Source of the DNA: Eubacteriales bacterium
GTDB taxonomy: Bacteria; Bacillota; Clostridia; Saccharofermentanales; UBA5734
DNA length: 33,488 nt
Assembly (NCBI GenBank): GCA_028685755.1
Contig: JAQUDJ010000002.1
Span: forward strand, 100,122-133,609
Reading direction: 5' to 3'
Under the pieces are notes generated by a model. That model was not told the origin of the DNA and did no database searches. It worked only from the letters and a program-made list of their open reading frames with translations. Numbering within the stretch: position 1 is the first letter of the stretch; each line of letters begins with the position of its first letter. This document shows positions 4,010 through 29,843 of the stretch, in pieces. A program made the translations under genes and the position numbers.

Positions 4010-5106
4010 TGACGCAACAGCCAGCTAAAAAACTCGAAAAAGACGGTATTTTATTAATTGAAAAACCCCGCGATCTGACGTCGTTCGGGGTTGTTTCTCG
4101 TTTGCGTCGTTTGATTGGTGAACGAAAAATTGGCCATACAGGGACCTTAGATCCCTTTGCGGAAGGCTTACTAGCCGTTTGTGTTGGACAAGCCACTCGC
4201 GTCGTTCAGTTCATGGATACGTATGACAAATCGTACCGTGTGCGTATATTATTCGGCCAAGCGACTGATACAATGGACCTGACTGGTACAATCATCGAAA
4301 GCAGATCGTTTTTGCCAGGTGAATTAAAAGCGTTACAAGATTCAGATTTTCAAGTCATCCGAGAGGCCGTTGCGGCGTTGGTTGGGCCCTCCATGCAAAT
4401 GCCCCCCATGTACTCGGCGGTTAAAATCGACGGCCAACCATTGTACAAGCTCGCGCGTGAAGGTCAAACTATTGATCGCCAGAGCCGCCCAATTACGATC
4501 TATCTTGCCGACATTGATCAGATCGACTGTCGCCCAGAACACGATCAAGTTGAACCGTATCTAGCGCTTGACTTGACTTTGAAAGTTTCAAAAGGCACCT
4601 ACATCCGTGTGATCGCGGATGAATTAGGCCGTCACTTAGGGTGGTTTGCGCATGCGATCTCGTTGGAAAGACTCACGGTTGGTCCTTTTAGCCGTGATCA
4701 TGCGATCAGCCTCGATCAGTTAGACCTATTGTTTGATCAACAACTTGAACGGAATCTTGCCCAGAACCAGGTTTGGCAGACGTTGATCAATCAAGGACTT
4801 GTTTACACAATGGATGACGCACTCGCCGATATGCCGACCTTGAACGTGCCGATGTATCTAGCGTTGCGCCTCGCCCAAGGTCAGAACGTGGTGCTTCATG
4901 CAGGCGATCTGACCACTTTTGCCCAAACATCTTTTACCCCTGAATTTGATCTGCGTCTAGCTGTACGTTGTTCTGTCGGTTTACTTGGTGTCATACGATT
5001 GACGCTTCCTTCGGAATTAACGGATTTGCCGGTATCCCCACCGTATGGATACCGATTGATGCCCGAAAGGATATTCTTGTCGCATGAACGTCTTTTACCC
5101 GAATGA
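4009..5106 (+). CDS. truB: tRNA pseudouridine(55) synthase
   Basis: Isomerises U55 in the T-loop of tRNAs. The 365-residue protein is longer than the usual 300-315. The catalytic motif GHTGTLDPFAEGLL is present with the nucleophilic Asp at residue 48. Other family motifs are the N-terminal GILLIEKPRDLTSF, the YDKSYRVRILFGQATDTMDLTG segment, and the MPPMYSAVKIDGQPLYKLAREG loop followed by KGTYIRVIADELG. The extra length lies after the core, around residues 230-290, before a C-terminal TruB_C/PUA-like part (NVPMYLALRLAQGQNV). The start overlaps the previous stop by one base, and the 3' end overlaps ribF by 23 bp, so translation of the block is probably coupled. Confidence 0.96.
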   Translation: MTQQPAKKLEKDGILLIEKPRDLTSFGVVSRLRRLIGERKIGHTGTLDPFAEGLLAVCVGQATRVVQFMDTYDKSYRVRILFGQATDTMDLTGTIIESRSFLPGELKALQDSDFQVIREAVAALVGPSMQMPPMYSAVKIDGQPLYKLAREGQTIDRQSRPITIYLADIDQIDCRPEHDQVEPYLALDLTLKVSKGTYIRVIADELGRHLGWFAHAISLERLTVGPFSRDHAISLDQLDLLFDQQLERNLAQNQVWQTLINQGLVYTMDDALADMPTLNVPMYLALRLAQGQNVVLHAGDLTTFAQTSFTPEFDLRLAVRCSVGLLGVIRLTLPSELTDLPVSPPYGYRLMPERIFLSHERLLPE

Positions 5107-7327
5107 CACGTGGGACCTCACTGTTCACAGAGGCGTTGCTTTAGGTTTTTTTGACGGTGTCCATCGCGGCCACCAAGATTTAATTAGAACCCTTGTTTAT
5201 CTTTGTGAGCAACGGCACTTAAGGCCAACCGTTTTTACGTTTCCTGAACATCCGCTCGTGACGATATCGCCAGAAGGCCAATTCCCTGGCTATCTTTCGA
5301 CTCTTGAGCAACGGATGCAGCGCATTGCCGATACAGGTATCCAAGAGGTTTTTTTACAGGACTTTACGACAGCGTTTGCCGCGCTGCCGCCGCTTGAATT
5401 TCTCAATTCCATCTTAAAAGACCATCTGCAAGCACGCCTTATCGTCGTCGGTAATGACTATCGCTTTGGTTATGAAGGTGAAGGGGACCTCGTCCTTTTG
5501 CGAGCGTGGGCGGCTGAACACCAGATCGAAGTGGTCATCGTTCCAGAGGTCAGACTTTATGGTGAAAAGGTCTCGAGCTCGCGGATTCGGCGCTTAATCG
5601 CAGCAGGGGATACCCAAATTGCTGCAAGTTGCTTGGGATTGCCTTTTCAGATGACCGGCCATGTCGTTGAAGGTAAAAAACTTGGCCGCAAACTCGGCTT
5701 TCCGACGGCGAATATGGCCATTTCACCAGATCTTGCAGTCCCGGCTTTTGGCGTCTATGTGACAAGGACTCGGGTTGGCAATCGAATGTATGAATCGATT
5801 ACCAATATTGGGATCCGCCCAACCATTCAAGATTCTGCCCCCAAACCGAATATCGAATCATTTCTTTTTGATGCGGATTTGGATCTTTATAGTCAAGAAA
5901 TAACCGTCGAATTTCTATACCGCTTACGCCCTGAGGTTATCTTTGATTCGTTACTTGAGTTAGCCGAGCAGGTTGAAATCGACCTTTTGCAAGCTCGTGA
6001 CTATCACCGGACGGCTGAACATGGATACGAAATTACCCGGATTAACGGCACGCCAGTCCGTGTCCTCAAAACGACACGCTTTGCTCAGGCCACCGCTATT
6101 TTGACCTTCCGGCTTAAAATCACACGAGCTGAAGCAAGTCTCTTTTCGATGTTGTCACGCTTGCTGACGGCCTCTTGTCAGCGTTATCCGACGCGGTCTA
6201 GTTTGTCAGCAGCACTCGACAGTCTTTATGGCGCAAGCATCGAAAATGAAGTCAGCAAAGACGGAGATCTGTTAAGTCTACATTTTGCGGTCAATGCCCT
6301 CATGAATTGGACGAATCAAACATCACCCTTTGCTGCCGCGCTAGATGTCCTATTTGACTTGCTCGAAAAACCAGACTTTGATCAAGATGGACATTTCACA
6401 GAAGCGATGTTTGCAGCAGAGCGAGATGGCTTGCGGATGGAATTGCTATCCCGCCAGAACGATAAAGCAAAGTTTGCCCTCGATCAATGTATGAACCGGT
6501 TATGTGGCGACCAACCTGCTGGACTGCGGGCGTCAGGTGATTTGGTGACGCTTGAAACGATTCAACGCGAGGACTTAACGGCAGCATATCGCCGCCTCAT
6601 AACAGATCTTGATTTTCAAGTATCAATTGCAGGCAACCTTTCCAATGACCTTATTGAGCACTTGTTTGAACGCGTCCGTCAATTGCGGACCAACACGCCG
6701 GTCTTGCCCGAAGCGCATGAAGCCTATCGGCCTGTTTACTTGCTGCGCCCAGGTGCCTTTAGCGCACAGGCGCTTGACAACAAAAATTTGCGCGAGTCCA
6801 AACAAGTCGAACAAGCTCGGATCTGCCTAGCTCTTACCGGACTGAAGCCCTATTTCAGCCATCAATCAATTATTGATACCGTGATGAATTCAATGCTTGG
6901 CGGTGATGTTCACTCATTACTCTTCGATGTCGTGCGTGAGCAAATGGGTTTAGCCTACAGTGTTTACTCTGTCAATAGTCGTTATCTTTCCACGTTGCTC
7001 GTGATCGCTGGCGTCGCACCTGACCGTGTCGATGAAGCCTTAGCTGCTATCTTGGAACAAGTCAATAATCTCAAGACTGGCACATTTTCACCCCGCTTAT
7101 TTGAACGGGCAGTGACCCTCGTAGAAAGCACGATTCGCACAATTCCGGATGACTTAGATAGCTTGCTCGCCCACATGATGAACGGGGTGACCCTCGGTCG
7201 GACTGTATCTATTCATGACTCGTTGAGTTTACTCGAGAGTGTTACGATTGAACAAATCATTGAACGAGCAGGGCATCTCAATGTGCAAAATAGCTATATC
7301 CTGACAGCAAAGGGGGAGACCCTGTGA
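5084..7327 (+). CDS. ribF: Fusion: RibF riboflavin kinase/FAD synthetase + inactive M16 (YmfF-like) domain
   Basis: A single 747-residue frame holding two proteins normally made separately. Residues 1 to about 307 are a complete RibF, which makes FMN and FAD from riboflavin: adenylyltransferase motif GFFDGVHRGH at 21-30, the SSSRIRRLI motif, and flavokinase motif GRKLGFPTAN at 201-210, then NIGIRPT and the usual C-terminal helix ending near QARDYH. About seven residues later (from Y315) an M16C-type domain of about 430 residues begins and runs to the end; its SLYGASIENEVSKDGD segment and VREQMGLAYSVYS near the C-terminal third are typical of YmfF-like insulinase relatives. The zinc motif HxxEH is absent; the equivalent helix reads MLSRL (356-360). 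Start ATG 5084 has GAAAGGA upstream and overlaps truB. No separate ATG or GTG start exists in frame at the junction; a TTG at 5987 lacks a ribosome site. The next gene, an M16 with an intact motif, overlaps by 4 bp. Confidence 0.93.
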   Translation: MNVFYPNDTWDLTVHRGVALGFFDGVHRGHQDLIRTLVYLCEQRHLRPTVFTFPEHPLVTISPEGQFPGYLSTLEQRMQRIADTGIQEVFLQDFTTAFAALPPLEFLNSILKDHLQARLIVVGNDYRFGYEGEGDLVLLRAWAAEHQIEVVIVPEVRLYGEKVSSSRIRRLIAAGDTQIAASCLGLPFQMTGHVVEGKKLGRKLGFPTANMAISPDLAVPAFGVYVTRTRVGNRMYESITNIGIRPTIQDSAPKPNIESFLFDADLDLYSQEITVEFLYRLRPEVIFDSLLELAEQVEIDLLQARDYHRTAEHGYEITRINGTPVRVLKTTRFAQATAILTFRLKITRAEASLFSMLSRLLTASCQRYPTRSSLSAALDSLYGASIENEVSKDGDLLSLHFAVNALMNWTNQTSPFAAALDVLFDLLEKPDFDQDGHFTEAMFAAERDGLRMELLSRQNDKAKFALDQCMNRLCGDQPAGLRASGDLVTLETIQREDLTAAYRRLITDLDFQVSIAGNLSNDLIEHLFERVRQLRTNTPVLPEAHEAYRPVYLLRPGAFSAQALDNKNLRESKQVEQARICLALTGLKPYFSHQSIIDTVMNSMLGGDVHSLLFDVVREQMGLAYSVYSVNSRYLSTLLVIAGVAPDRVDEALAAILEQVNNLKTGTFSPRLFERAVTLVESTIRTIPDDLDSLLAHMMNGVTLGRTVSIHDSLSLLESVTIEQIIERAGHLNVQNSYILTAKGETL

Positions 7328-8667
7328 ACGCAAGTCAAACCACCCACTTGACGACTGACCACCACGCCTTTACCTTGCTCGAAACGGTCGATCCGCTGAC
7401 CAGCCATGTCATGCGTACCTATCGTCATCGATCGGGTTTTCTGGTGAAAATATTGCCTCGGCCTGGGTTTTCACGCCGCTTCGCCGCGCTAACCGTACCG
7501 TATGGGTCCATCCATACAACCTTCGTACGTGAAGGACTGACGACGACTGTCCCGGATGGTAGTGCGCATTTTCTCGAACATTGTGTCTTTTCAAGAGATG
7601 AGCAAGGGGGCTTGTTAGGTCGTCTTTCGGCGCTCGGTGCATCAGCCAACGCTTATACGAGTCACACGCACACGATGTACTATTTTTCCAGTGTGGCATC
7701 ATTTAGTGAAGGTTTAGAACTCTATCTCGACGCCGTGCTCAATCCCTACTTAGAAACAGATCGTATCGACGTGGAACGGCCAGTTATATTGGCTGAGCTT
7801 GACCAGTATCTCGACGATCCGGATACAGTCTGCTATGTGCAACTTTTGAACAGCTTGTACCATAATCACCCGGTGCGCCAAGACATTGGTGGCACCGCAG
7901 CGTCAGTCAAACAGATCACCAGCGAACATCTCAAGTCTGTTTGGTCAACTTTTTATCAGCCGGGAATGCTATCCCTAACACTTGTTGGCGATTTGGAAGA
8001 AATGCAAATCCTCAAAAGCTTAGGCGCGCGTCTCGCGACCGCGCAACCGGTGCGTGGCCAAGCCGTTCTCGACACCGAACCGGAAACCCCTGAAAATCAA
8101 CCTGTGATCAAAGCGATGGATGTTTCCGCACCTTCTTTTTTAGTCGGGATCAAAGATCCAACTATTTTACCGCAACATCCGCTCGAAGGTCGGGAGCTCG
8201 TGCTGCGACAAAGGATGGCGCGTCTTGCCTTTGACACCCTTTTATCACCTGCCTCGGCATTGTATGAAAAACTTTTTGAGCGTGGCCTAATCAATGATTC
8301 ATTTGGCTATCATTACGCCTGTGAACCAAACTTTGCGTTCCTAGCGGCAGGTGGCGAATCGAAAGATCCTCAAGCTGCCGGGGAGGCTTTGATTATCGGC
8401 TTGCAACATGCGTGGCGCCAAGGCCTCGATCCGGAATTGTTCGAGATCCAAAAACGAGCCGCCGCCGGTGATTTTGTTCGCTCGTTAGATTCAATTGAAC
8501 ACAGTGGTCTCGTCCAAGCGCAATGCAACCAATATGGACTCGATCTCTTCGATTATCCGGCCCTCTATGATAAGATGAATGCCGAAACGGCCATGCAACA
8601 GCTTGGTTTTCTCGGTGATCCGGCAAGCTACACGATGTCAATCATTACCCGCCAAAGTGAAGACTAG
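7324..8667 (+). CDS. M16 zinc metallopeptidase (YmfH-like, intact HxxEH)
   Basis: Insulinase/processing-peptidase-fold protein of 447 residues. The inverted zinc motif is H82-F-L-E85-H86, and a likely third ligand, E158, lies in the AELDQYLDDPD segment about 72 residues later, at the spacing expected for M16. SALGASANAYTSHTHTMYYF between them matches the substrate-strand region. The GTG start overlaps the preceding TGA by 4 bp and has a strong AAGGGGGAG site. M16 proteins of this type work as pairs of one active and one inactive subunit; the inactive partner here is the C-terminal half of the preceding RibF fusion, so a heterodimer is inferred. Bacillus YmfF/YmfH are the closest known arrangement. 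Substrate is unknown; secreted or membrane peptides are possible, though no signal peptide is seen here. Confidence 0.92.
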   Translation: MNASQTTHLTTDHHAFTLLETVDPLTSHVMRTYRHRSGFLVKILPRPGFSRRFAALTVPYGSIHTTFVREGLTTTVPDGSAHFLEHCVFSRDEQGGLLGRLSALGASANAYTSHTHTMYYFSSVASFSEGLELYLDAVLNPYLETDRIDVERPVILAELDQYLDDPDTVCYVQLLNSLYHNHPVRQDIGGTAASVKQITSEHLKSVWSTFYQPGMLSLTLVGDLEEMQILKSLGARLATAQPVRGQAVLDTEPETPENQPVIKAMDVSAPSFLVGIKDPTILPQHPLEGRELVLRQRMARLAFDTLLSPASALYEKLFERGLINDSFGYHYACEPNFAFLAAGGESKDPQAAGEALIIGLQHAWRQGLDPELFEIQKRAAAGDFVRSLDSIEHSGLVQAQCNQYGLDLFDYPALYDKMNAETAMQQLGFLGDPASYTMSIITRQSED

Positions 8668-11452: not shown

Positions 11453-12395
11453 TTTTGGCCATTTGTCCGTACTTTACCGCCAGTCGCTTGAGCAGCTGGC
11501 GATTGACCCTGCCGGCTGTTACATCGACTGTACACTCGGCGGCGGGGGGCATTCCTCCGGCATTTTGAGCAAGCTTGGGCCGCAAGGCCATCTCTACGGT
11601 TTTGATAAGGACCAAGACGCTCTCAGAGCTGCAGCCACGAAACTTGAAAGCATTCATAGTCCCGCGACCGTGCACTTGATTCATCGTGATTTTTCAGAAA
11701 TTGCTCAAGCTTGTATCGAACAGCAAATCCCCCAAGTTAATGGTTTACTCGCAGATCTCGGTGTTTCCTCGTGGCAACTTGATCAAGCAGAACGTGGCTT
11801 TTCCTATAGCCATGATGGCCCGCTCGATATGCGCATGAATCAGACAGCTGGACAGACCGCAGCCGAACTCGTCAACACAGCGAGTGAAGCCGAATTGACC
11901 CGGATCTTGCTCGATTACGGTGAAGAACGATATGCCCGACGTATCAGCCAAGCAATCATCCGCTATCGCAATGAACAACCCTTTGCCACAACCGCTGAAC
12001 TCGCCGCTGTCGTCAAACGGGCGATGCCGGGACAAGGCTTGAAAGAAGCCCAACACCCCGCCAAACGAACGTTTCAAGCCATCCGCATTGCCGTTAACGG
12101 TGAACTAAGCGCCTTAGAAAGTCTTTTGAAAGCCCTCCCCGATATCCTAGCCCCCGGTGGTCGCGCCTGCATCATTACCTTCCACTCGTTAGAAGACCGC
12201 CTCGTCAAAGAAGCCTTCCGCCGCTGGGAATCCCCTTGCACCTGCCCCCGTGAATTCCCGGTTTGCATTTGTGGTCAGAAGTCACTCGGTAAAATGATCA
12301 GCAAAAAGCCCATTATCGCCGATGACCAGGAAATGAAAGAAAATCCACGGGCACGTAGTGCCAAACTCCGAGTTTTTGCGAAAGGAGCAGTGTAA
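11436..12395 (+). CDS. rsmH: 16S rRNA (cytosine(1402)-N(4))-methyltransferase RsmH (MraW)
   Basis: SAM-dependent methyltransferase that modifies C1402 in the ribosomal P site. The 319-residue protein is of normal length. It begins with HLSVLYRQSLEQL, then the SAM-binding motif DCTLGGGGHSSGIL, LADLGVSSWQLDQAERGFSY, the inserted helical domain with TTAELAAVVKRAMPG, and the C-terminal FHSLEDRLVKEAFRRW. A CTCPREFPVCICG segment near the end gives a Cys cluster seen in many homologues. The ATG at 11436 lies within the end of mraZ, so translation is probably coupled. This is the standard second gene of the dcw cluster. Confidence 0.97.
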   Translation: MSAASDFGHLSVLYRQSLEQLAIDPAGCYIDCTLGGGGHSSGILSKLGPQGHLYGFDKDQDALRAAATKLESIHSPATVHLIHRDFSEIAQACIEQQIPQVNGLLADLGVSSWQLDQAERGFSYSHDGPLDMRMNQTAGQTAAELVNTASEAELTRILLDYGEERYARRISQAIIRYRNEQPFATTAELAAVVKRAMPGQGLKEAQHPAKRTFQAIRIAVNGELSALESLLKALPDILAPGGRACIITFHSLEDRLVKEAFRRWESPCTCPREFPVCICGQKSLGKMISKKPIIADDQEMKENPRARSAKLRVFAKGAV

Positions 12396-12399
12396 GAAG

Positions 12400-12975
12400 A
12401 TGGTTGAACACGGTAATTTAGCCTTTGAACCACTTTTCCAAGATAGTGACCAAGCCCTAGATTGGGCCAATCCACTGCCTTCAGCTGCGCGTCGGATGTT
12501 GCTCGAAGACCCAATCTCTCGCACCGTTTCGCTCCAAGAAAAAGCAAAAAAGGTTCGCCACAATCTGACGATTCGTCGTTATAAAAATCTAGCAGGCTTA
12601 ATCCTTTTGATCATCACAGTTTCGGCTATTTTTAGCACAATACTGTGGCGCCAAGCGATGATCCTCGAGCAGAATTTTGGCAATTTAAAAATGGAACGAA
12701 CGATCAAAAAAACCAATCAAGAAACAGGTCAGATAGCGGAGGCGCTTGCTGCTCGCACGGATCTTGAACAAATCAAACTACAAGCAATCACAGAACTTGG
12801 CTTACAAGAGCCTGCACATAAACAGGTCGTGACCGTAGATATCCCCAATACCGACCGTGTCGTTTTTGCTGGTAATGGTAATCGGCAGGTGAGTCAGGAA
12901 GTCATGCTCGCGGATAGTTTCACGGCGATTGAAGGGTTTTTCAAAACACTTTCGATCCCAGGTCAGACTCCGTGA
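12400..12975 (+). CDS. ftsL: FtsL-like bitopic division protein
   Basis: Short membrane protein of 191 residues in the position of ftsL, between rsmH and the division PBP. A cytoplasmic segment of about 70 residues ends in a basic RHNLTIRRYK stretch, followed by one membrane helix (LAGLILLIITVSAIFSTILW, roughly 66-85) and an external coiled-coil-like region rich in E, K and Q that ends with an LGLQEP motif near residue 137, as in FtsL/FtsB proteins. FtsL joins FtsB/DivIC and FtsQ/DivIB to activate FtsW and its PBP. ATG 12400 is preferred to a GTG at 12358 because AAAGGAG lies at 12381-12387. Sequence identity in this family is always low, so the assignment rests on topology and position. The last 4 bp overlap the PBP gene. 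Confidence 0.8.
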   Translation: MVEHGNLAFEPLFQDSDQALDWANPLPSAARRMLLEDPISRTVSLQEKAKKVRHNLTIRRYKNLAGLILLIITVSAIFSTILWRQAMILEQNFGNLKMERTIKKTNQETGQIAEALAARTDLEQIKLQAITELGLQEPAHKQVVTVDIPNTDRVVFAGNGNRQVSQEVMLADSFTAIEGFFKTLSIPGQTP

Positions 12976-25542: not shown

Positions 25543-26253
25543 ATGAAAAAGGCCCTGATCGTTGATGACGATCCGCATATCAGTGAACTCTTACGGTTAT
25601 ATTTCAATAAAGATGGCTTTGACGTAGTCAGCTGTTTCGATGGGATTGAAGCGATCGAACGTTTTCCGCAAGCACAACCAGACATCGTTATTTTAGATCT
25701 CATGCTCCCAGGTAAAGATGGTTACGATGTGCTGCGCGATATTCGCCGGCATTCCAACGTTCCTGTCATCATGCTGACAGCTCGCGGTGACACCTTAGAC
25801 AAAGTGGTCGGACTCGAACTCGGAGCCGACGATTATGTCCAAAAGCCTTTTGAACCGAAAGAACTGATGGCGCGAGTCAAAGCCGTCCTTCGTCGTGCTG
25901 AACCAGATGGCGAGCTCCAAAAAAATCCGTCCGACCAAACTGCTGGCGAATGGGTCGAATATCCTGGGATTCGCATTGACAAGTCCCGTTATAGCGTCAC
26001 TGTCAGTGGACAGAATTTAGAGATGCCACCGAAAGAACTCGAACTTCTGTTCTTTTTATCATCGCATCCGAATCGAGTTTTTACCCGCGAACAATTACTT
26101 GAAAACATCTGGGGCTTCGACTTTTTCGGCGAATCCCGCACGGTCGATGTTCATATCAAGCGTATCCGTGAAAAAATCGAAGACATGGGTGAACATCCTG
26201 ACTGGCAGATCAAAACGGTCTGGGGTGTTGGCTACAAATTTGAAGTCTTTTAA
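25543..26253 (+). CDS. OmpR/PhoB-family response regulator
   Basis: Two-domain regulator of 236 residues. The receiver domain carries the acidic pair DDD at 8-10, the phosphoacceptor D52 (ILDLMLPGKDGYDVL), the LTARGD Thr and the KPF lysine near 100. After a short linker, a winged-helix DNA-binding domain (PPKELELLFFLSSHPNRVFTREQLLENIWGFDFFGESRTVDVHIKRIREKI, in two parts) completes the protein. It resembles WalR/PhoP-type regulators, but targets cannot be deduced. It lies 29 nt after nrdR, with a GGGAAGAGG site, and 75 nt before its likely cognate kinase. Confidence 0.95.
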   Translation: MKKALIVDDDPHISELLRLYFNKDGFDVVSCFDGIEAIERFPQAQPDIVILDLMLPGKDGYDVLRDIRRHSNVPVIMLTARGDTLDKVVGLELGADDYVQKPFEPKELMARVKAVLRRAEPDGELQKNPSDQTAGEWVEYPGIRIDKSRYSVTVSGQNLEMPPKELELLFFLSSHPNRVFTREQLLENIWGFDFFGESRTVDVHIKRIREKIEDMGEHPDWQIKTVWGVGYKFEVF

Positions 26254-26328: not shown

Positions 26329-27846
26329 ATGAAACATCGCTTTTCAATGCATTCGCTTTATGGGCGGACAATCCTGCAGCTGGCGATGGCTATTTTAGTC
26401 GTCTTTTCGGTTATGGGTGTTTTTTATTATGGCATTGTGACGACTGCGAGTGCGAGGCAGCAATCTAATCAGCTTCTAGGTAGTACGCAAGCGATTGCCG
26501 AAGTTGTTGGACCGTCTTTCAATGCATCTCGCGGTGAAATTACCAGTTCACAAGTCATAAGTTATTTAAATTTCACAGCGCGCTCAACGGGCGCCCTTGT
26601 GTGGGTCATCGACCGCCAAGGCAATTTTGCCTTCATGACAAATACACCTGTCACACTAACTGAGTCATTTGAACTGATAGATGAGCAATGGAATTTGCCC
26701 GATACATATCGAGGTGGGGCAGACCTAGGTACATCAGGGCGATCTTCTATTGGCGATTTCTCAGGGCTCTTCCGCAGTACTGGTCAACGGTGGATCAGCA
26801 CAACCGTTCCTTTGCCTTCACCAACTGGGGCATACATCGGCGAAATCCAACTGCACAGGCCTGTTGTCACCGAAAGCTTCAACAGCTTTTTAATGGCTAA
26901 CAGCTTACTGCTTTCAATGCTCGTCGCCTTTATCCTCGCGCTGTTTTTCCTAGGCTTACTGTCGCGCAACATCACCCGCCCCATTCGCCTTTTAGCCCAA
27001 ACTGCAGATCGGGTTTATCGTGGTGACCTAACTGCTCGTGTCAAACTCAGTGGTTTTTCGGGGAGTTCTCAGCCCAGCAAACCAGCGCTTGTCACGGATG
27101 ATCTGATGATTCTTGTCGAAACCATGAATTCAATGATCGAGAAATTAGAAAATCAAGAACGTACGCGCCGTGATTTCATTTCAAGTGTTACACACGATTT
27201 GCGAACGCCGCTGACGTCAGTCCGGGGTTTTGTCGAAGGAATCCTCGACGGAACTGTCCCCGAAGAGAAAATCGGCACCTATTTGGATATCGTTAGGCAA
27301 GAAGTCATGCGTCTGCAAACGATGGTCAATACCTTATCAGAAGCCAGTCGCTTTGATAGTGGGACGGTCCAGCTTGATCAAACCGTCTTTGATATCTATG
27401 CTTTACTCAAAGAAGATGTTTATGGTCTCGAATCCCTGCTGAACGAAAAAAATATCAGTGTTCAGACTGATTTTGAAAGCAGCGAACAAGATCGTCTCCT
27501 AGTCGTCGGTGACCGAGCCGCAATCAGCCGAGTTGTTTATAACATCATCTCCAATGCCATTCGTTATACACCAGTAGACGGCATCATTTCGCTAACAACT
27601 CGGCGCAACAATCGAACGCATCTGATTGAAATTGTCATTGAAGACAGTGGGCCAGGGATTTCCTCAGCGGAATGGCCTTTTATATTTGATCGCTTTTATA
27701 CAGTCGACAAAAGTCGAACCGGCAAAAGTTCAGGTCTTGGATTATTCATTTGCCGCACCATACTTGCAGCCCATGGTCAGCGGATTACCGTATCCAACAG
27801 TGAACTCGGCGGGGCGTGTTTTACATTTACTTTAGCTATGCCATAA
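26329..27846 (+). CDS. Membrane sensor histidine kinase (HAMP-HisKA-HATPase)
   Basis: Likely sensor for the upstream regulator; 505 residues. Membrane helix 1 is at about 14-36 and helix 2 at about 187-209, enclosing an external domain of about 150 residues with no obvious named fold. A HAMP linker (SRNITRPIRLLAQTADRVYRGDL) follows, then a HisKA domain with phosphorylated H289 in SVTHDLRTPLTSVRG and an HATPase domain with N-box NIISNAIRYTP, G1 EDSGPGIS, F-box FDRFYTVDKSR and G2 SSGLGLFICRTIL. All catalytic motifs look intact. There is no PAS domain between HAMP and HisKA, unlike WalK. The ATG has only a weak ribosome site, and the 75-nt gap from the regulator is unusually long for a two-gene pair. 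Confidence 0.94.
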   Translation: MKHRFSMHSLYGRTILQLAMAILVVFSVMGVFYYGIVTTASARQQSNQLLGSTQAIAEVVGPSFNASRGEITSSQVISYLNFTARSTGALVWVIDRQGNFAFMTNTPVTLTESFELIDEQWNLPDTYRGGADLGTSGRSSIGDFSGLFRSTGQRWISTTVPLPSPTGAYIGEIQLHRPVVTESFNSFLMANSLLLSMLVAFILALFFLGLLSRNITRPIRLLAQTADRVYRGDLTARVKLSGFSGSSQPSKPALVTDDLMILVETMNSMIEKLENQERTRRDFISSVTHDLRTPLTSVRGFVEGILDGTVPEEKIGTYLDIVRQEVMRLQTMVNTLSEASRFDSGTVQLDQTVFDIYALLKEDVYGLESLLNEKNISVQTDFESSEQDRLLVVGDRAAISRVVYNIISNAIRYTPVDGIISLTTRRNNRTHLIEIVIEDSGPGISSAEWPFIFDRFYTVDKSRTGKSSGLGLFICRTILAAHGQRITVSNSELGGACFTFTLAMP

Positions 27847-27935
27847 GTTGTTCACAATCCATTCAAATTTATTGGCTAGAATGTTAGTACACAACTTTTT
27901 CTGACAAGATTTTTGAGTGATCATGGAGGCTGGCT

Positions 27936-29201
27936 TTGAAATTTCGCACAAGCAACGCGATTGCCCTGATTGCAGTAGGCCTAACAGCGGCTTTTGCATC
28001 ATCCCTGCTGACCTCCTGGCTTTTCTATCGCGACCCTTTTGGTCTAACTCTGACAAGCCAGTCAGCTTCCGAAACGCTTGATGATACGCCCACGACGACG
28101 AATCTTGTACCGACCATGGTCGAGATAACCGTTCCAACGACGGCTACTTTGGAAACACAACCCGCACCGACGCTCGTAGATCCAAGCATTTTAGGTGACG
28201 CGGCGAAGGAGCAGCTCGCGCAACTAATTAATGGTACACTCGTCCAATCGTTATACGAAAGAATCTCACCGAGTGTGGTGGGCATTCGTGTGACTGTCGA
28301 GTCCGCAGATTCAGCCACCCCGCTGACAGATCGCGGATCAGGTTTGATTTATAAAGCAGACGGCTTGATTTTAACGAGTACCGATGTTTTAGGCATTGCA
28401 ATGAATCGCTATGGAGAGCTCTTGGAGAATACGATCATCCAAGTGCAAGTCGCTAGTGAATCGGAACCTTTTGTAGCACAACTCATTGGGAAGGATCGTT
28501 TGACCGGAGTGGCAGTGCTTTCAATCGAACCCGGTCTGACAAAATTGCAACCTGCCGTGTTTACATATGCCCCAACCTTGAAAGTAGGACAACATGTCTT
28601 CTTTGTGAGTTATCCGGATGACCTAATTGAATCTGGCTCAATGACGAGTGGTCTGATCAATGCCCTGCACGAACCAATTCAGCTAGAAGATGGTACCACT
28701 GTCGAGATGATTCGCTCGGATGCCCCGATTCTAACTAATGGCGGTGGCGGCCCACTAATCAACTTAGCCGGTGAAGTCATCGCTTTATCAAGCTCAAGCC
28801 AATTAACAGACACATATGACAGCCTCAGTTACGCGATGCCATCTTCGGCCGCCTTATCTGTTGCAGATAGCTTGATCAGCCAGGGCTTCGTTGCAGGCCG
28901 CGCCTGGCTCGGTGTAGCGGTCCTCAAGGATGAAAGCTTTGAAGAATTGCAAGCGTTGTACCATTTCCCAGATGGCCTCTATGTCAGTCACGTGATCGAG
29001 GATAGTCCTGCCTATATCGCCGACATCCGGCGTGGTGATATTATTACTGCAGTTAACGATAAAGCCGTTGACAAGCATCAAAGCCTTGCCTCAATTTTAA
29101 CCCAACATGCAGCGGGTGATCAGATTAATGTCACGGTCTATCGCCGTAGCAATGGTAAATCATTGACCTTGAAAGTGTATCTTAAAGAATATGTTGAATG
29201 A
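27936..29201 (+). CDS. Membrane-anchored HtrA-like pseudoprotease with PDZ domain
   Basis: 421 residues in the S1C/HtrA layout: an N-terminal membrane helix (about 7-29), a Pro/Thr-rich external linker (about 43-85), a trypsin-like domain (about 105-310) and a PDZ domain (from WLGVAVLKDESF, about 323, to the end). The protease core aligns well with family landmarks, yet all three catalytic positions differ: GLILTSTDVLG places D150 where HtrA has His, LTGVAVLSIE places G191 for Asp, and NGGGGPLINLAGEV places G270 for Ser in GNSGGPL. It is therefore predicted to be inactive, perhaps a PDZ scaffold or sensor. TTG start 27936 follows ATGGAGG. Its position behind a two-component system resembles htrC behind walRK in Bacillus. 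nth follows after 6 nt. Confidence 0.9.
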   Translation: MKFRTSNAIALIAVGLTAAFASSLLTSWLFYRDPFGLTLTSQSASETLDDTPTTTNLVPTMVEITVPTTATLETQPAPTLVDPSILGDAAKEQLAQLINGTLVQSLYERISPSVVGIRVTVESADSATPLTDRGSGLIYKADGLILTSTDVLGIAMNRYGELLENTIIQVQVASESEPFVAQLIGKDRLTGVAVLSIEPGLTKLQPAVFTYAPTLKVGQHVFFVSYPDDLIESGSMTSGLINALHEPIQLEDGTTVEMIRSDAPILTNGGGGPLINLAGEVIALSSSSQLTDTYDSLSYAMPSSAALSVADSLISQGFVAGRAWLGVAVLKDESFEELQALYHFPDGLYVSHVIEDSPAYIADIRRGDIITAVNDKAVDKHQSLASILTQHAAGDQINVTVYRRSNGKSLTLKVYLKEYVE

Positions 29202-29207
29202 TCATAA

Positions 29208-29843
29208 ATGACCACTAAAAAGCAACGTGTTGCCGCTCTCGTCGCTCGACTTGAAGCCTATTACCCAGATGTTTACTGCACACTCAACTTTAACAGCGCA
29301 CACGAATTACTCGTTGGGGCCATTCTTGCAGCACAGTGTACGGATGCTCGGGTCAATCTCGTGACGCCCGCACTTTTTGCGCACTATCCAACACCCCAGG
29401 CTTTTGCCACCGCCGATCGTACTGATTTGGAAACGCTGATTCGATCTGTCGGACTTTTTCGCAACAAGGCAAAAGCGATTCAGGCCGCCAGTCAAACACT
29501 AGTTGAACGATTTGCCGGTATAATGCCAGACAATTTGAATGATCTCACTGCATTGCCAGGGGTCGGCCGCAAAATTGCCAATCTGATCCTAGGGGACTGG
29601 TTTGGGCAACAAGCAGTCGTTGTCGATACGCACTGTGCCCGTATTTCTAAATTGCTAGGGCTAACTGAGCGCGATGATCCACCAGGTGTCGAAAAGGACT
29701 TGATCAAAGTACTCCCGCCAGATAAGCAAACGCTCTATGGCCATTTGATGGTGACCCTTGGGCGCGAAATTTGTATCGCCAGACGCCCCCAGTGTGACCG
29801 TTGCCCAGTGAAAGACTTGTGTGATTATGGCCGATCTGCTTGA
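29208..29843 (+). CDS. nth: Endonuclease III
   Basis: Base-excision repair DNA glycosylase/AP lyase that removes oxidised pyrimidines. The 211-residue length matches E. coli Nth. The helix-hairpin-helix LPGVGRKIANLIL contains catalytic Lys122, and VVDTHCARI contains catalytic Asp140, spaced as in E. coli (K120, D138). The C-terminal 4Fe-4S cluster ligands are C189, C196, C199 and C205 in the Cx6Cx2Cx5C pattern. No clear ribosome site precedes the ATG, so it may rely on the upstream gene. The end overlaps recG by 17 bp. Confidence 0.97.
   Translation: MTTKKQRVAALVARLEAYYPDVYCTLNFNSAHELLVGAILAAQCTDARVNLVTPALFAHYPTPQAFATADRTDLETLIRSVGLFRNKAKAIQAASQTLVERFAGIMPDNLNDLTALPGVGRKIANLILGDWFGQQAVVVDTHCARISKLLGLTERDDPPGVEKDLIKVLPPDKQTLYGHLMVTLGREICIARRPQCDRCPVKDLCDYGRSA

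Follow-up and report, generated by a model that had tools for sequence, protein, structure and literature searches.

A putative HtrA-fold pseudoprotease kept beside a two-component system across two families of a clostridial order

Organisation of the locus

The window, that is, the whole stretch of 33,488 nucleotides analysed here, belongs to a genome of 2.04 Mb in 56 contigs which carries, besides the HtrA-like protein under study (hereafter HtrA'), two HtrAs with an intact catalytic triad (HDS). The gene order is ftsZ, nrdR, a response regulator (RR), a sensor histidine kinase (HK), HtrA', nth, recG, rsmD and coaD, and the locus lies downstream of murG-divIB-ftsZ; RR and HK are named by their Pfam domains, whereas ftsZ, nrdR, nth, recG, rsmD and coaD are putative names. 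The following features were distinguished.

25543 to 26253, plus strand: response regulator of OmpR type, with Response_reg and Trans_reg_C domains (Pfam), kept in the locus
26329 to 27846, plus strand: sensor histidine kinase, with an ectodomain at about residues 40-182 and HAMP, HisKA and HATPase_c domains (Pfam, model)
27925 to 27929, plus strand: GGAGG, seen in the sequence 6 bases 5' of the TTG start, a likely ribosome-binding site
27936 to 29201, plus strand: gene of the putative pseudoprotease HtrA', an open frame of 421 codons (421 amino acids) from a TTG start to a stop at 29201, with Trypsin_2 and PDZ_2 domains and an HtrA fold
27957 to 28013, plus strand: hydrophobic anchor, residues 8-26, the best 19-residue hydrophobic window, within a model helix at residues 2-31
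28014 to 28244, plus strand: linker rich in P, T and S, residues 27-103, mostly disordered in the AlphaFold2 model
28245 to 28883, plus strand: protease-like domain, residues 104-316, without the triad (Pfam, alignments, model, structure match)
28383 to 28385, plus strand: codon of D150, in the column of the catalytic His (phmmer and MAFFT alignments)
28506 to 28508, plus strand: codon of G191, in the column of the catalytic Asp (same alignments)
28743 to 28745, plus strand: codon of G270, in the column of the catalytic Ser (same alignments)
28899 to 29183, plus strand: PDZ domain, residues 322-416 (Pfam), the more conserved domain among the dead f1 copies (see below)
29208 to 29843, plus strand: nth-like gene, the constant downstream neighbour, starting 6 bases 3' of HtrA'

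The HK and HtrA' genes are separated by 89 bases, in which this strand has no terminator-like site. In the model of the HK ectodomain, which is of good confidence, a long helix leads into a beta-sheet.

Comparisons were made within one order of 188 genomes, in which families and genera received the working labels f1 to f4 and g1 to g30; the window falls in f1, represented by 23 genomes including its own. The same gene order was found in the other HtrA'-bearing loci of f1 as well as in f3, and the HtrA' locus is more than the oddity of one species, being kept in two families of this clostridial order.

Pfam searches placed Trypsin_2 on residues 134-284 (4.6e-16) and PDZ_2 on residues 325-414 (8.8e-16) of HtrA', both over the cut-off. 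The AlphaFold2 model (mean pLDDT 75.6) aligned with the structures of DegQ, DegS, HtrA1 and Deg at Z 26-28, and HtrA' has the Trypsin_2 fold with a C-terminal PDZ domain by which the HtrA/Deg (S1C) group is recognised. It scored under the cut-off of every named NCBIfam HtrA subfamily, the best being the Do family (145.3 of 416.2 bits). A reading of the sequence alone had already proposed an S1C fold, a PDZ domain and a membrane anchor for this protein; all three were borne out by these searches and by the model, and the coordinates and residue numbers that it gave (D150, G191, G270) proved exact. It had not touched on the neighbouring genes, which turned out to be the most telling evidence.

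A second pairing of an HtrA with a two-component system exists in the window's genome: on the minus strand of contig C2 (positions 4379-7526, L077), one of its two intact HtrAs lies by an RR and an HK, in the order HtrA, RR, HK. Elsewhere in the window, an IF-2-like gene starts with tandem repeats rich in Gly, Pro, Asn and Tyr (29-461; TRF periods 24, 42 and 78) ahead of its IF2_N domain. A frame of 205 amino acids between mraW-like and ftsI-like genes (12358-12975), in the place expected for ftsL, gave no Pfam match at 1e-4. Finally, the segment 5084-8667 contains a frame of 747 amino acids for an FAD synthetase/riboflavin kinase, apparently fused to the inactive domain of an M16 peptidase, and another M16-like frame follows it.

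Catalytic positions, history and constraint

In phmmer alignments D150, G191 and G270 stand opposite the catalytic columns of solved HtrA chains, and a MAFFT alignment with the paralogues of the same genome and with relatives gave the same placement. The claim of the sequence-only reading that His, Asp and Ser are all replaced is thereby upheld. The oxyanion position is also altered, with N268 instead of Gly. By its fold HtrA' is a relative of the HtrAs and, as judged from these alignments, not an HtrA protease, the catalytic His-Asp-Ser triad being absent.

The catalytic columns were compared in 45 copies from the locus and in 20 paralogues encoded outside it in genomes of f1 and f2; six readable f3 copies added later bring the locus copies to 51, a fragment lacking these columns (G008) being excluded. 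At least one triad residue is missing in 49 of the 51 readable copies, in many combinations, and the two with an intact triad both belong to genus g7, whereas HDS was found in all 20 paralogues from outside the locus. The oxyanion Gly is kept in 22/22 active copies (the 20 paralogues and the two from g7) and occurs in 0/15 dead f1 copies and in 0/27 readable dead f3 copies. Dead triads in f1 read DGG (1), DGQ (4), GGS (2), AGS (2), SGS (2), SGT (2), SGA (1) and SNF (1). Those of f3 read SDA (14), SDS (6), SDP (4), -DP (1), QDN (4), HDN (1), HDK (1), -DN (1) and SD- (2), where a dash denotes an absent, masked or gapped column; the two f3 copies which retain the column His carry Asn or Lys in the Ser column. 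Loss of all three residues is limited to some relatives, others lacking one or two.

Orthologues sharing the substitutions of the window copy had been suggested as something to look for: orthologues deficient in the triad are indeed the rule, and identical substitutions were not found, since the four nearest relatives of the window copy carry D, G and Q and other genera differ again. Selection would accordingly have acted on the non-protease state and not on the D/G/G replacement itself, the exact substitutions differing between relatives. No substitute catalytic residue and no set of Cys or His at the old active site was common to the dead clade among the aligned copies. In seven of the 15 dead f1 copies, from genera g3, g5, g8 and g9, Cys269, immediately ahead of the former catalytic Ser, is accompanied by Cys287, 18 residues on; another three have a single Cys of this pair, and the window's genus lacks both. 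In those relatives the two may form a disulphide bridging the former active site; the pair was dropped as part of the explanation because of its absence from the window's genus.

Trees built after removal of the N-terminal part and the catalytic columns separate the dead copies from all others with 100/100 support. In a rooted tree, which has long branches, the canonical paralogues cluster with seven HtrAs from other orders (100/96), and the intact locus copies of g7 adjoin the dead clade, in a group (96/83) with intact off-locus copies from g3 and g4. The first tree was built without G024 and G061, the column-stripped tree also without P_f1g2_G005, G037 and G032, and eleven further near-duplicates were omitted from the rooted tree. 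The intact off-locus neighbours of the dead clade (L101 and L102 in g3, L095 and L096 in g4) are possibly remnants of an active sister copy. The simplest history, as read from these trees, would be that an active HtrA was duplicated and one copy lost catalysis once, after which its triad drifted; a duplication after which one of the copies suffered a loss is also reported for the MamE family (PMC4794232). The intact locus copy of g7 may be the ancestral active copy retained, or may have been placed there later.

All locus copies that were read have open frames. Over residues 104-416, relatives of the window gene gave dN/dS values of 0.036-0.080 in the nine dead pairs that yielded an estimate, comprising six pairs within the window's genus (0.036-0.061) and three others (0.080, 0.072 and 0.045); one active pair gave 0.029. 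A short f3 copy (G024) was considered as a decayed remnant and this was dropped, a masked stretch making its length uninformative. The sequence-only reading had taken the intact frame as a sign that this is not simple decay, and had pointed to a selected non-proteolytic role: the open frame of 421 codons and the purifying selection seen in the relatives agree with the former, and the triad-deficient orthologues with dN/dS far below 1 support the latter. On these comparisons, HtrA' is almost certainly a pseudoprotease that has been kept.

The distribution of constraint between the two domains differs between active and dead copies. In pairwise counts, which are taken among related sequences and are not independent events, all 231 pairs of active copies have the protease domain as the better conserved of the two. 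The PDZ domain leads instead in 95% of 105 pairs of dead f1 copies (mean identity 0.557 versus 0.460), in 70% of 325 pairs in f3, where the shift is weaker (G024 and G061 omitted), and in 48% of 91 pairs in genus g20, which has no shift. W324 and the motif PAY at 358-360 are fixed in 15/15 dead f1 copies, and are found in 4/22 and 3/22 active copies, respectively. The shift of conservation toward the PDZ domain in f1 fits ligand sensing.

Association with the kinase and possible roles

An HK orthologue is present in 52 of the 61 f1 and f3 genomes, a 53rd and weaker match (G014, 207 bits) being taken for a paralogue. In 49 of these 52, HK directly adjoins the HtrA of the locus (intact in g7, otherwise dead); in the remaining three a contig break falls between the two genes (G080) or the contig ends inside HK (G021, G067). 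Nine genomes lack HK. In the four of these whose loci could be read through, HtrA' is gone as well (4/4); neither HK nor a locus-type HtrA' was seen in G005, G040 and G065, whose loci are cut off or unread, and in G061 and G072 HtrA' sits at a contig end, at the place expected for HK. In readable loci, HtrA' is found only where the kinase is present, and the two are lost together. The reverse does not hold. In f2 (6/6 loci read) and f4 (4/5), nth comes after HK without an intervening HtrA, the remaining f4 locus (G036) showing no recognisable window gene after HK, so that HtrA' is not required for a working kinase. As far as gene content tells, HtrA' needs the kinase and the kinase does not need HtrA'.

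The RecG-corrected distance correlation of HtrA' with HK in f1 was 0.75, the highest of nine genes; in f3 it was 0.68, with RR, ftsZ and divIB at 0.71-0.73 (rows shorter than 70% of the median length were dropped). This correlation may be regarded as supportive and not specific. Disagreement of the HK tree with the RecG tree was also considered as a trace of a joint history of HK and HtrA', and was dropped because a single clade of f3+f4 kinases was not rejected by an AU test (p 0.185).

The losses take more than one form. In L168 (G014), L178 (G007) and L170 (G029) nrdR leads straight to nth and the whole RR-HK-HtrA' block is lost; in L169 (G009) nrdR and RR are followed by nth, HK and HtrA' being lost. 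These whole or partial losses fall in genera g4, g6 and g15, and the flanking genes are retained.

Gene order and joint loss suggest, with about an even chance in our judgement, that HtrA' serves the adjacent kinase as an accessory sensor which bears a PDZ domain and does not cut. DegS offers a precedent for the sensing part: it is described as a sensor whose protease is triggered when its PDZ domain binds the C-termini of misfolded proteins (PMC12826053). Envelope two-component systems linked with an active HtrA are described for other Gram-positives, namely CssRS (PMC10715036) and CroRS (PMC11326707). Tethered to the membrane, HtrA' would work on its outer side without cutting. Envelope proteins that are misplaced or misfolded may be bound by its PDZ domain at their C-termini or at exposed strands. 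The protease-like body, the part that reacts to PDZ binding in DegS-type enzymes, would relay this to the HK ectodomain by contact and not by proteolysis; HK and its OmpR-type regulator could then tune envelope genes. HtrA' would thus be an accessory sensor of a two-component system, in a role akin to that of YycH and YycI for WalK. That an old, multi-family lineage of HtrA pseudoproteases has become a dedicated PDZ-gated co-receptor of a histidine kinase is a tentative extension, to which we give somewhat less than an even chance. The same tentative standing applies to the evolutionary course which goes with a co-receptor, in which a DegS-like output would have switched from proteolysis to kinase contact and selection would have moved from the body to the PDZ domain. 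The intact HtrA at the same locus position in g7 counts against the accessory-sensor reading, and the shared gene order could reflect co-expression only.

We consider it rather unlikely that HtrA' is instead a holdase or chaperone, whose PDZ domain and body bind unfolded secreted proteins and which belongs to the operon or regulon of the kinase without signalling to it. A protease-inactive HtrA of Bacillus subtilis reportedly lowers secretion stress and raises amylase yield, an effect read there as chaperone-like (PMC10715036). The conserved PDZ domain and the low dN/dS would fit a chaperone equally well, and stress-response HtrAs often sit in a two-component operon or regulon, but joint loss with HK, while at least two other HtrAs usually remain, is unexpected for a general chaperone.

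A regulatory subunit of the active paralogues, joining or capping their trimers and tuning their proteolysis as MamO does for MamE, appears improbable. The genome of the window has two HDS HtrAs on which it might act, and MamO is reported to activate MamE-dependent proteolysis (PMC4794232); however, active HtrAs occur in every family, with or without HtrA', and HtrA' tracks the kinase and not any given paralogue. More doubtful still is a function apart from the kinase, whether as a scaffold for the divisome or the cell wall or in binding metal: the position of the gene after murG-divIB-ftsZ would suit a scaffold, but the loci of g4, g6 and g15 retain ftsZ and its neighbours without HK and HtrA', and metal binding finds no shared Cys/His set at the old active site. 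Ordinary decay, which the variation of the triad columns between genera in the manner of unconstrained positions might suggest, is scarcely credible with frames open throughout and dN/dS far below 1, as is a protease with relocated catalytic residues, given that the oxyanion Gly is lost too and that no clade-wide substitute exists.

Comparison with known systems

Several described systems resemble the accessory sensor that we favour, each in part. MamO and the inactive MamE share with HtrA' a degenerate triad and a non-glycine oxyanion position, and in both cases duplication has left inactive copies alongside active ones (PMC4794232). In that paper these proteins belong to the magnetosome island of alpha-, delta- and gamma-Proteobacteria, whereas HtrA' belongs to a two-component locus of Clostridia and, unlike them, forms a dead clade spanning two families of one order. 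The NCBIfam MamO model gave HtrA' 22.6 of 800 bits, under its cut-off.

In gene order the locus resembles PepD-MprAB of Mycobacterium, in which an HtrA-like gene lies immediately 3' of the genes for a response regulator and a sensor kinase (PMC3062566); the order RR, HK, HtrA was found in the window and in its relatives. PepD is likewise a membrane HtrA with a single PDZ domain, and the solved Rv0983 chain was among the structural matches of HtrA'. It is an active protease (PMC3062566), whereas HtrA', by its sequence, has neither triad nor oxyanion Gly. None of the models used assigned the RR and HK of the locus to MprAB.

DegS of E. coli (3gdv, 1sot and others) has the same architecture of an anchor, one protease-like domain and one PDZ domain, and its structures align with HtrA' over residues 91-421 at Z 26-27. 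The difference lies in the output: DegS cuts RseA after its PDZ domain has bound C-termini (PMC12826053), and HtrA' is without the three catalytic residues. The score of HtrA' with the DegS model was 101.2, the cut-off being 408. Neither YycH nor YycI is known as an HtrA, and WalRK models stayed under their cut-offs (212.8 of 725 for HK with WalK, 249.9 of 340 for RR with YycF). The likeness to YycH and YycI with WalRK is one of proposed role only, that of membrane accessory proteins tuning a neighbouring kinase.

A class-wide search (query A1, 1e-55) gave matches in 56 of 391 genomes, an even sample of a larger group; outside the order no match in this sample exceeded 233 bits, against at least 577 for the three family members that it contained, and the seven matches from outside the order that were aligned all read HDS (7/7). 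On viral contigs, 60 pattern-matching stretches encoded no HtrA' relative. In open-licence PMC papers, mostly taken as titles and the beginnings of abstracts, no description was found of the HtrA' locus or of a kinase-tied HtrA pseudoprotease.

HtrA pseudoproteases such as MamO, and HtrA genes which follow two-component systems, as in PepD-MprAB and others, are already known. What appears to be new, on the sequences compared here, is the pairing of the two in a lineage of two families, absence from the open-licence literature being no proof of novelty. HtrA proteins have mostly been studied as proteases, with chaperoning as a side role. In a lineage that has given up proteolysis and retained the PDZ domain and a two-component partner, the sensing of ligands is uncoupled from cutting, and the order provides natural controls at one locus, with a dead copy in f1 and f3, an intact copy in g7 and a kinase without HtrA in f2 and f4. 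With these controls one can test what message a protein of HtrA type conveys to a kinase. Compared with the MamO and MamE proteins, the present lineage further indicates that pseudoprotease evolution in the HtrA fold is not confined to magnetosomes.
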